A DNA stretch of 56,950 nt from Candidatus Zixiibacteriota bacterium. Its GTDB lineage: Bacteria; Zixibacteria; MSB-5A5; DG-27. Each line of letters opens with the position of its first letter. The stretch's first letter is position 1. The DNA is taken from the NCBI GenBank assembly GCA_030605835.1, contig JAUWHO010000005.1, positions 1-56,950 on the forward strand. Reading direction: 5' to 3'. Shown piece after piece: positions 34,911 to 38,365 of the stretch. The translations under genes and the position numbers were made by a program. The notes under the pieces were generated by a model. That model made no database searches and was not told the DNA's origin. It saw only the letters and a program-made list of their open reading frames with translations.

Positions 34911-35088
34911 TGTGTCTTTCCAGAGAATGTTTTATCGACGCCAGCAGTCCAAATATGTTACAACTTCAGAGAAAGTCAACTACCTGGCCGGTTTTCATTC
35001 TTCGGAAGCGAGATGAAAGACCTCGTCCGTCCAACCCCGAGCCCGAAAATGGTTGCGAACTTGCGATTTTCCCTTATCTTTTGAGGAA

Positions 35089-36675
35089 ATGAGAATCGAT
35101 AGAATGACAATTGAGAGCAAGACGGTGCTGGCCCCACTCGCGGGGATTTCAGATTCGCCGTTCCGAAGACTGGCCAGATCGTTCGGTGCCGGTTTAGTCT
35201 TCACTGAAATGGTGAGTGTCGAGGGCTTGTTGAGAAGGAATCGGCCCAGTCTACAACTTCTGAATTTCACGGAGGAGGAGCGGCCCATCGGAGCCCAACT
35301 GTTTGGGTCACGTCCTGAAAGTGCAGAGGTAGCAGTGAGAGTCGCGGAGGAGTTCAGGCCCGATTTCATAGACTTCAACGCCGGCTGTCCGGTCAGAAAG
35401 GTCGTGAGAAAAGAGGGCGGAGCCGCTCTGTTGAAGGACTTGAAGCTGCTCGAAGAGATCCTGAGAAGAATGATCGAAGCTACGGAGTTACCGGTCACCC
35501 TGAAACTGCGCTCCGGTTGGGATGAAGATTCGGTGGTAGTGGTCGAAGCCTCTCAGATGGCAGAGTCGCTCGGCTGCAGGGCGGTGACAGTCCATCCCCG
35601 AACTCAGAGGCAGGGTTTCTCGGGAAATGCCGACTGGGAGCTGATCGCAAAGGTGAAAGAAGCCGTCAAAATACCTGTGATCGGCAACGGAGACGTCAAA
35701 ACCCCTCAGGACGCCAAAAGGATGCTCGACGAAACCGGATGCGATGCCGTGATGATCGGGAGAGCCGCACTGGGGAACCCCTGGATTTTCGCAAAAACCA
35801 ATCATTATCTGAATACCGGGGAACTGCTGCCGGAGCCGGCCATCGAAGAGAGAATGGAAGTCTTTTTGAAGCATGTCCGATTCATGCGAGAAGAGATTGG
35901 CGAGGATAGAGCGATGAAGAGGATGCGTTCCCACATCGGCTGGTATATTAAAGGACTGCTGTATGCCAACAGGCTGAGGCAGAGAATCATTAGAATCGAC
36001 AGATATGATGAGCTGGAGCAGGTGCTGCAAGAGTATGTCAACCCGGCGAGCTTCAGGGAGCAGATCAGAAACAGCAATGTTTTCGGTCCGGTGACGGAAG
36101 GCTCGACAGCCTTTGGGGTGGACTTGTCTAAAGACGAAAGAGGGGCGGGCACGATCCTCCAGAGGAGGCCAGAAACGTACCAGGGAGCCTGGTCAAAGCA
36201 CGAGAGGGAAGCCGAGGTCAAGGCATTCATGAGTCCTCGTTACCAGGAGATGCTGAACAGATGGCTCGAGTACCGTTACTTAATCTTAGAGCACTCCCCC
36301 AAGATCTATGAAGGGATACAGAGGCTTCTGCAGACTCCGATGACCAACGAGATTATTATGCGAATCTTTTCTGAGATCGAAAGCGCCTTGTCTCAAACCC
36401 CGGGGGACGGCTGCAGGGTCAGTGCCGCCTTGCACATCTGGGGTAAACTGAAAGGGAAGGGAAAAAACGGGGACAAGCTGCACTTCTTCTATTTTCTGGA
36501 TGCATTCAGAAGGGGAAGAATCACCATAAGAGGCGCGAAGAGAATCCTGTATAGGTTAGCTCAAAAACAAAGAAACGAAGAGCTGCTGAGTTCCAGATAT
36601 TTCGATGAAATAAGACTAGGCTGCCGAGAGCAGGAGCAGACTACCTCAAAAGCAGCATCTTGCGCTGAGAAGTAG
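35089..36675 (+). CDS. tRNA-dihydrouridine synthase (DusB-like) fused to a DUF1722-like domain
   Basis: 528 residues from the ATG at 35089, chosen because MRIDRMTIESK aligns with the DusB start; the frame is open back to 35053. Residues 1-320 are a complete FMN-dependent Dus that reduces uridines in tRNA. It has A-P-L-A-G-I-S-D-S-P-F-R, the catalytic C100 in F-N-A-G-C-P, K-L-R-S-G-W-D, V-I-G-N-G-D-V and M-I-G-R-A-A-L-G-N-P-W-I-F. Normal Dus ends near 330. Here about 200 more residues follow; residues 368-510 fit DUF1722 (the YbgA domain). They have S-P-R-Y-Q-E-M-L-N-R-W, Y-L-I-L-E-H-S-P-K-I-Y, A-L-H-I-W-G-K-L-K, F-R-R-G-R-I and L-L-S-S-R-Y-F. The 3' end overlaps the convergent FG-GAP gene by 35 bases. 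Confidence 0.88.
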   Translation: MRIDRMTIESKTVLAPLAGISDSPFRRLARSFGAGLVFTEMVSVEGLLRRNRPSLQLLNFTEEERPIGAQLFGSRPESAEVAVRVAEEFRPDFIDFNAGCPVRKVVRKEGGAALLKDLKLLEEILRRMIEATELPVTLKLRSGWDEDSVVVVEASQMAESLGCRAVTVHPRTQRQGFSGNADWELIAKVKEAVKIPVIGNGDVKTPQDAKRMLDETGCDAVMIGRAALGNPWIFAKTNHYLNTGELLPEPAIEERMEVFLKHVRFMREEIGEDRAMKRMRSHIGWYIKGLLYANRLRQRIIRIDRYDELEQVLQEYVNPASFREQIRNSNVFGPVTEGSTAFGVDLSKDERGAGTILQRRPETYQGAWSKHEREAEVKAFMSPRYQEMLNRWLEYRYLILEHSPKIYEGIQRLLQTPMTNEIIMRIFSEIESALSQTPGDGCRVSAALHIWGKLKGKGKNGDKLHFFYFLDAFRRGRITIRGAKRILYRLAQKQRNEELLSSRYFDEIRLGCREQEQTTSKAASCAEK

Positions 36676-38365
36676 CCCCGTCTCCGAGACTTAGACGATA
36701 TATGTAAATGCCTGAGGAAACCTCCTCCCCTCCGTTATTGCATCCATCCCAGGTGATAAAATAGCTCCCCGTGGATTGGGCCTTATCGACCAGTTCTCTC
36801 ACTTCCTGGCCTGCGATGTTGAAGATCTTCAGCTTGACCTGAACCGGATAGCTTGCCTTGACTGAATACCTGATAGTGGTGTTGGAGTTGAAGGGATTGG
36901 GGTAATTCTGGTCTAAGCTGAATTTCTCCGGGGTTAACTGTGATCGGAAGTCATCCACCCAGGTCGGTCTTTTGAAGGTGGCGTTGTTGGTGCGCTGGGG
37001 ATCATGCCCGGACATGGGCCAGACCATGAGGTGGGGATTATAAGGAGTGTGTAGCTTGTAAATGGCGACGCGGTTGTATCTCCGGTAAAAGCCTACATCG
37101 TAATGCGACATCACCACCATCTCCAGGATGCCGTCGTTGTCGACATCTCCAACGGCCGGCACTGCTGCGAGAGTAGTGCCCCTCACTCGCAATGGGAAAT
37201 GATCCACCGAAGAGCCATCGACATTGAATGCCCACACATAGCCAACTACGCCGGTGTCGGTTTGCTCCCCGCCTGAATAGTCAAAAACCACCTCCAACTC
37301 TTGGTCACCGTCGATGTCACCGATTACAGGTGAATCCCAGGTGCTGGAAGGCCCGGGGGTATAATAGGGCCAACCCGGCATTACCACACCTTCAGAATTC
37401 ACGAGGTAGTATTCACCTGCTGTCCTGGTGCCGAAAGCAACCTCGAGGGATGGTGTTTCGTAGTCAAACTGCCCCGCGGTAGGCGTACAATGAGCATTTC
37501 CTGGGAAAACCCTCGGCCAACCCCAGTAGTGCTCGCCCCTTCCACTGAGCACGTGGACGCGAGTCTCGTAGTAAGGAAAAGGGTGAATCAACTGAGTCAG
37601 CAATATATCTAAAGTGTCATTACCATTGAAATCATAGAGAGAGGGAGGCAGCGTAAAACACCCGTGGTCAAAGGTCAAGTCTATCGGATATCCCTCTACC
37701 GGTTCTCCATTATCATGCCAGGCATGCACGTAACCATCGTGGTCAAGGAAGATTATCTCCGGGTCCCCGTCACCATCTATGTCTCCAACTGCAGGCTCCA
37801 TAGCCGATTTAATGCCGTATTTGGGCCAGCCGGGGTAATAACTGCCATCCCCTCGCCAGACGTATATCAGGGAACTGTCGTCGAAGGCCATGATTATTTC
37901 GTCTGCTCCGTCCCCGTCAAGATCATACAGGCAGGGCGACTGCTGCAGAAAATCAGTCTCTATGGGATAGTTAGGCTTCAACTCACCATCCAAAGACCAG
38001 GCGAAAAGCTTCCCTGTTCTGACCTTGTCACACTGAGCGACAATATCGCATTCTCCATCACCATCTATGTCACCGACTGCCAATTGCTTCATAACAATAT
38101 AACCGTTCGCGCTTGCTTGAGGCCAGTTGGCAAAGGGGGTGCCGTCGTGATGATAGATATAAATCGTATCCAGAGAGGGAAAGAGCAGCTCCAGGTCACC
38201 ATCACCGTCAAGGTCGACGATGGGCGGTCCGCCTGCAGGATTAGCAAATGTCACGTCGGCGGGAAAATCCTTCGGCCACCCCGGCATGATTTCGGGAGGC
38301 TGGGCGAGAGACGCAGCAGCCAGCAATATCGGTACTGAAATAACAATGTGAAGGAACTTAAGCAT
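36641..38365 (-). CDS. Secreted FG-GAP/VCBS repeat protein with C-terminal FlgD-like sorting domain
   Basis: 574 residues. A signal peptide (about 1-21) is followed by FG-GAP-type repeats with calcium-loop patterns V-D-L-D-G-D-G-D-L-E, V-G-D-I-D-G-D-G-D-P-E, L-Y-D-F-N-G-N-D-T-L-D and V-G-D-V-D-N-D-G-I-L-E. These form a beta-propeller. The last about 85 residues begin L-D-Q-N-Y-P-N-P-F-N-S and end R-K-M-L-L-L-R, with G-Q-E-V and G-I-Y-I-Y-R-L between. This is the FlgD-Ig / type IX secretion C-terminal domain that is very common in FCB bacteria. It is probably exported to the cell surface or medium. A GAGGAG lies eight bases before the ATG. Confidence 0.9.
   Translation of the reverse strand: MLKFLHIVISVPILLAAASLAQPPEIMPGWPKDFPADVTFANPAGGPPIVDLDGDGDLELLFPSLDTIYIYHHDGTPFANWPQASANGYIVMKQLAVGDIDGDGECDIVAQCDKVRTGKLFAWSLDGELKPNYPIETDFLQQSPCLYDLDGDGADEIIMAFDDSSLIYVWRGDGSYYPGWPKYGIKSAMEPAVGDIDGDGDPEIIFLDHDGYVHAWHDNGEPVEGYPIDLTFDHGCFTLPPSLYDFNGNDTLDILLTQLIHPFPYYETRVHVLSGRGEHYWGWPRVFPGNAHCTPTAGQFDYETPSLEVAFGTRTAGEYYLVNSEGVVMPGWPYYTPGPSSTWDSPVIGDIDGDQELEVVFDYSGGEQTDTGVVGYVWAFNVDGSSVDHFPLRVRGTTLAAVPAVGDVDNDGILEMVVMSHYDVGFYRRYNRVAIYKLHTPYNPHLMVWPMSGHDPQRTNNATFKRPTWVDDFRSQLTPEKFSLDQNYPNPFNSNTTIRYSVKASYPVQVKLKIFNIAGQEVRELVDKAQSTGSYFITWDGCNNGGEEVSSGIYIYRLSLGDGATSQRKMLLLR

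Follow-up and report, generated by a model that had tools for sequence, protein, structure and literature searches.

The window (the whole stretch of 56,950 nucleotides of Candidatus Zixiibacteriota DNA that was analysed) contains, at 35089-36675 on the forward strand, a gene whose product is, to judge from its profile matches, a DusB-type dihydrouridine synthase followed by a C-terminal DUF1722 domain. One single open frame spans both domains. According to the translation and the ORF list of the window, the frame opens with an ATG at 35089 and closes with a stop codon ending at 36675 (528 codons plus stop), giving a product of 528 residues. A TTG at 35053 provides an alternative start upstream; the ATG is preferred because the alignment with the orthologue from Zixibacteria bacterium DG_27, described below, begins at the same place.

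The first part of the protein matches the Pfam dihydrouridine synthase family PF01207 over residues 14-314 (299.7 bits, E 2.8e-89) and the NCBIfam DusB model TIGR00737 over residues 3-318 (391 bits, above the cut-off of 293.3). It comprises the predicted catalytic TIM barrel (residues about 1-240; 35089-35808), with the presumptive catalytic Cys100 in an NAGCP motif (codon at 35386-35388), and the C-terminal helical domain expected to bind tRNA (residues about 241-318; 35809-36042), which lies inside both matches. Residues C100, K139, H169 and R171 are invariant in an alignment of this Dus part with five relatives. A weakly conserved linker (residues about 319-388; 36043-36252) leads to the DUF1722 domain (residues about 389-510; 36253-36618), which has a net charge of +9 and which Pfam recognises as PF08349 at residues 397-506 (profile positions 2-114 of 117, 53.6 bits, E 3.2e-14, gathering cut-off 22.5 bits). 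Residues 511-528 and the stop codon (36619-36675) form a variable end. The 3′ end of the gene overlaps a convergent gene (36641-38365, reverse strand) by 35 bases (36641-36675), and this overlap may account for an odd substitution pattern in the last codons. Searches found neither a Pfam match to TudS (PF04463) in the fusion protein nor a RudS gene in the genome.

These matches bear out the sequence-only reading of this DNA, which had recognised a complete Dus in the first 320 residues, a catalytic cysteine at the same position of NAGCP, and a DUF1722 tail on a tRNA-modifying flavoenzyme. The motifs it had listed for the tail (EHSP, H-x-W-G-K-L-K, DKL, FRRGRI and LLSSRYF) are all present. Its span for the domain, 368-510, proved slightly generous, as the Pfam match is shorter and the linker comes before it.

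Structure prediction, suggested by the same reading, returned a helical domain for the tail. The AlphaFold2 model of the tail alone (alignment of eight rows) is all helical, with nine helical elements, a pLDDT of 82.5 and a pTM of 0.73. Confidence in this predicted fold is moderate since the mean pLDDT of the five models spreads widely (82.5, 76.8, 58.8, 51.2 and 50.2). Foldseek returned no significant hit for the tail model among either PDB or viral models; the authors of the RudS study likewise found no structural relative by Dali (PMC11417400). Hits of the tail to HigB and NSD2 among PDB sequences were disregarded (E 0.07 or worse). In the full-length model (alignment of three rows, mean pLDDT 61.9), pLDDT drops below 50 at residues 320-366 and the placement of the domains is not given by the model.

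Conservation and distribution of the fusion

A 528-residue orthologue is encoded on contig LIZU01000097 (L002) of Zixibacteria bacterium DG_27, an independent assembly identified as the second member of the genus by coinciding match coordinates. The two proteins are 78% identical over their full length and align without gaps, and genes for ETF alpha, SecA and a lipoprotein neighbour the fusion in both genomes. By the Nei-Gojobori method, dN/dS between the two genes is lowest in the barrel (0.09), followed by the helical domain (0.14), DUF1722 (about 0.19) and the linker (0.34; 63% identity); the last 18 residues diverge (44% identity). These values point to purifying selection on the DUF1722 tail. 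The gap-free DG_27 protein, the conserved synteny and the selection on the tail establish that the fusion is maintained and is not an artefact: that two genes were joined by an error of assembly or annotation has next to no probability when the same protein, in the same setting, appears in a second assembly and the whole lies in a single open frame.

About 587 genomes of many families (G000-G586), including 133 from the window's phylum, were scanned using either PF08349 or a profile built from the tails. Dus-DUF1722 fusions were found in two of them, the window genome and DG_27. The sampled genomes amount to ~0.6% of 97,973 species, and the fusion is likely to be rare outside the sample as well. 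DUF1722 matches occur in 60 of the 133 Zixibacteria genomes, and only the two from the window's genus lie in frames of about 550 residues; most of the others are in frames of 315-406 residues, which proved to be RudS wherever one was inspected, or are fragments. Long frames at DUF1722 hits in G200, G306, G303, G269 and G503 were rejected as further fusions, being really RudS with long upstream frames in G+C-rich DNA. Also set aside were G270:C209 and G219:C40, where the matches are weak and the long frames do not read as Dus. The DUF1722 survey further gave a 22-bit match in a 3983-residue frame (G359:C40). No relatives of the tail were found in viral contigs with the tail profile, nor in plasmids and phages by tblastn with the tail. 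In eight other Dus proteins of the phylum the chain continues for just 5-34 residues beyond the helical domain, as against 210 in the fusion, so the tail was either gained in or near the window's genus or lost in all other sampled lineages. Both families are known; no paper pairing DUF1722 with a dihydrouridine synthase was found in the open-access literature searched, and an uncommented InterPro entry may exist.

The window genome encodes one DUF1722 and one strong Dus, the second Dus hit being weak (19.5 bits over 71 positions). With a single strong Dus in the genome, the fusion enzyme probably supplies every dihydrouridine (D) site in its organism. DusB1 of M. capricolum serves several positions (PMC11162810).

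Regarding 4-thiouridine (s4U), the genome encodes a canonical ThiI (TIGR00342, 402 bits; G000:C46, L164:1134-2333, forward strand), so this nucleoside is probably present in the tRNA of the organism. A stand-alone TudS lies on a different contig from the fusion (G000:C33, L163:3045-3500, reverse strand); none was found in the DG_27 assembly, which is 52% complete. Among the 133 Zixibacteria genomes, canonical ThiI occurs in only two, those with the fusion, a coincidence that concerns one lineage and carries no statistical weight. Zixibacteria without canonical ThiI have a protein of about 343 residues (L160:432-1460, reverse strand; L161, L162, L165), which in L160 combines a ThiI-like PP-loop with NFACT-R_2 (PF18297). 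This protein is a candidate for the s4U synthase that groups A and B of the RudS study lack (PMC11417400). Outside the window's genus, ThiI matches (E 1e-6 or better) are present in 52 of 58 genomes that have DUF1722 and in 47 of 73 that do not (Fisher p 9e-4, in a test that ignores relatedness).

Relatives of the DUF1722 tail

RudS, a TudS-DUF1722 protein, erases s4U from tRNA (Jamontas et al. 2024; PMC11417400). Its three Fe-S cysteines and its catalytic Glu, Ser and Arg all lie in the TudS half, and a stand-alone DUF1722 protein, E. coli YbgA, left s4U unchanged (PMC11417400). The DUF1722 half is reported to help TudS bind tRNA; docking and mutants placed it at the anticodon arm, S243M and R244M having the strongest effects in that half (PMC11417400). 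With this support for tRNA binding, the designation of DUF1722 as an orphan domain in the sequence-only reading is outdated. RudS genes occur in light-responsive operons (PMC11417400). A RudS gene at L049:1293-2510 (forward strand) lies, by eye, beside a photolyase-like gene and a gene that seems to encode a MerR-type regulator containing a B12-like part, a neighbourhood that fits the reported light-response link.

When all collected frames were ranked against the tail by phmmer, the Dus fusions were followed by L047 (38 bits) and L056 (31 bits), every RudS scoring 18 bits or less. L047 joins UvdE (226 bits) to DUF1722 (47.6 bits), and L056 joins Pyr_excise (31.6 bits) to a DUF1722 match of 22.0 bits, just below the gathering cut-off. 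In a tree of 66 DUF1722 domains, which is unrooted and carries a long-branch warning, the RudS and YbgA domains part from the tails of Dus, UvdE and the glycosylases with support of 100/99. Leaving out UvdE or the glycosylases hardly alters this support (100/99 and 100/98). Since the tree is unrooted, the one safe statement is that the Dus tail falls outside the RudS/YbgA clade. Profile alignment by hhalign (96.5%, E 8e-10 against RudS DUF1722; 96.7% against the glycosylase fusion) shows that the Dus tail is homologous to both, without ranking the two. Alignments of RudS tails with the full-length fusion protein were misaligned and were discarded.

The place of Ser243-Arg244 (RudS_KT numbering), the pair in contact with the anticodon in models of RudS, was mapped through the RudS of phage 1H12 (S240-R241) by numbering offset and is occupied by Gly-Asp or Glu-Asp in the Dus tails. 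These tails also lack the P-x-P...L-x-L-R motif that RudS has at its C-terminal end. The His-Ser turn and several other positions of RudS DUF1722 are kept. The net charge of the Dus tails is +7 to +9, that of RudS DUF1722 +9.1 on average and that of the glycosylase-type tails -5 to -13. Given these acidic tails, the DUF1722 fold would not always be a charge-based binder of nucleic acids.

The UvdE fusion (L047/L066; L047:1238-2488, forward strand, genome G351) carries DUF1722 at the C-terminal end of a UV-damage endonuclease; in the other six genomes of that phylum the DUF1722 match lies instead in a frame of 316-345 residues. In the Pyr_excise-DUF1722 proteins (L065, L067, L068, L148-L153; phylum of G375) the DUF1722 tail is acidic and follows a pyrimidine-dimer DNA glycosylase (PF03013). 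Of the 12 genomes of this small phylum, 11 match the tail profile, and all nine aligned members match both families with E <0.001. A DUF1722 protein without the Pfam TudS half (L045:1591-3012, reverse strand, G367) is possibly a degenerate RudS. As for photolyase, with which the sequence-only reading had associated DUF1722, the link holds as gene neighbourhood (ybgA beside phr in E. coli), and there are also UV-repair enzymes to which DUF1722 is fused directly.

Possible roles of the tail

We favour, with middling confidence, the explanation that a working DusB-type enzyme acquired DUF1722 in one genus and that the tail serves as an extra tRNA-docking module; enzyme activity, tRNA binding by the tail and an effect on site choice are all three inferred. 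The Dus part would work as usual, its barrel and helical domain holding the tRNA at the elbow and reducing uridines of the D-loop with FMN. A linker of about 70 residues would let the basic, all-helical DUF1722 make a second contact with the same tRNA. This contact might raise affinity, or widen or tune the choice of tRNAs and positions to be reduced, making the tail a bacterial counterpart of the double-stranded RNA-binding domain (dsRBD) on animal Dus2. Consistent with docking are the two domains passing curated cut-offs, the gap-free DG_27 copy, the lower dN/dS of the tail (0.19 vs 0.34 for the linker), the RudS precedent for tRNA binding, the profile homology to RudS DUF1722, the RudS-like basic charge, the helical fold predicted for the tail, the dsRBD of Dus2 as a precedent, and the presence of just one strong Dus in the genome. 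Against it stand the absence of the RudS Ser-Arg pair, the position of the tail outside the RudS/YbgA clade, the acidity of the glycosylase-type tails and a helical domain that, unlike that of human Dus2, keeps its basic residues. The best reading is a role in substrate selection, one of the functions offered by the sequence-only reading, or in binding. Its other suggestion, sulfur removal, is not supported; the Dus tail has no TudS half.

The main rival to docking, possible though less probable, is a general helical appendage that binds a protein partner or stabilises the enzyme and makes no contact with tRNA. That the same subgroup tails such unrelated DNA enzymes as UvdE and the pyrimidine-dimer glycosylase, that the glycosylase-type copies are acidic and that the RudS contact residues are not conserved would all suit such a module; yet nucleic acids or their bases are the substrates of every DUF1722 host identified, the tail on Dus has a basic charge, and RudS sets a precedent for binding tRNA. 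The presence of canonical ThiI only in the window's genus among the 133 Zixibacteria genomes, together with the lack of RudS in that genus and the stand-alone TudS of the window genome, raises the rather improbable alternative that the tail is a sensor of s4U at position 8 or of the tRNA's UV state, or recruits TudS in trans, and so couples D formation to s4U metabolism like a RudS split over two proteins. However, a single lineage gives that pattern no statistical weight, the incomplete DG_27 assembly (52%) showed no TudS, the TudS gene is on another contig (C33) and YbgA alone had no effect on s4U (PMC11417400). Removal of sulfur by the tail, or any other catalysis on thiouridine, is recommended by the name association with DUF523/TudS only; it is unlikely because the Dus tail has no desulfidase parts, and the location of all RudS catalytic and Fe-S residues in the TudS half, the inactivity of stand-alone DUF1722 on s4U (PMC11417400) and the missing PF04463 match reduce it to a very slim chance.

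Ultraviolet light is a theme common to DUF1722 hosts: TudS acts on the photosensitive s4U, ybgA is paired with phr in E. coli, RudS genes sit in light-responsive operons (PMC11417400), and the nearest tails are those on UvdE and on the pyrimidine-dimer glycosylase. A part for the fusion in the response to UV or light damage is nevertheless quite improbable, as the ORF list of the window, inspected by eye, has no photolyase or repair gene beside it. To our knowledge, moreover, no UV role of dihydrouridine is established. Hardly more probable is the broader idea that DUF1722 comprises two subfamilies, the RudS/YbgA type and a second type tailing UvdE, pyrimidine-dimer glycosylase and Dus, the second being a shared accessory module whose targets are pyrimidine sites of nucleic acids, distorted or photochemically sensitive, and which, on Dus, redirects D formation or couples it to that state of the tRNA. 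The similarity of the Dus tail to the DUF1722 of two UV-repair enzymes widens the range of purposes that the domain may have, and brings together three enzymes that are easily assayed. If the tail binds tRNA, as we favour, the fusion would join RudS as a second example of a tRNA-docking DUF1722 and would have its parallel in the Dus2-dsRBD of animals.

Comparison with known systems sets these readings in context. Like the fusion, RudS carries a C-terminal DUF1722 of similar net charge on a tRNA-acting enzyme; unlike it, RudS has TudS as catalytic partner, the Ser-Arg pair and the P-x-P...L-x-L-R motif, and belongs to a clade that excludes the Dus tail. YbgA of E. coli is also of the DUF1722 family but falls within the RudS clade and is a separate gene beside phr. 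The UvdE-DUF1722 (L047/L066) and Pyr_excise-DUF1722 proteins have the tails closest to the Dus tail by phmmer and tree, whereas their catalytic parts act, by family, on UV-damaged DNA and the glycosylase tails are acidic where the Dus tail is basic. With DusB (TIGR00737) the fusion shares the full-length match, Cys100, the FMN barrel and the helical domain, and it differs from the eight relatives of the phylum in the about 210 residues that follow this domain in place of their 5-34. Elsewhere, Dus enzymes have gained RNA-binding tails such as the Dus2 dsRBD and zinc fingers (PMC9775027). Animal Dus2 likewise joins Dus to a C-terminal module on a linker, and its dsRBD, a different fold from DUF1722, was shown to bind tRNA (PMC9775027). 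The helical domain of Dus2 has lost positive charge. Such a loss, as in human Dus2, was looked for in the fusion and not seen: its helical domain has 14 K/R and is not depleted relative to tail-less relatives. Because this domain kept its basic residues, the DUF1722 tail would not replace it.
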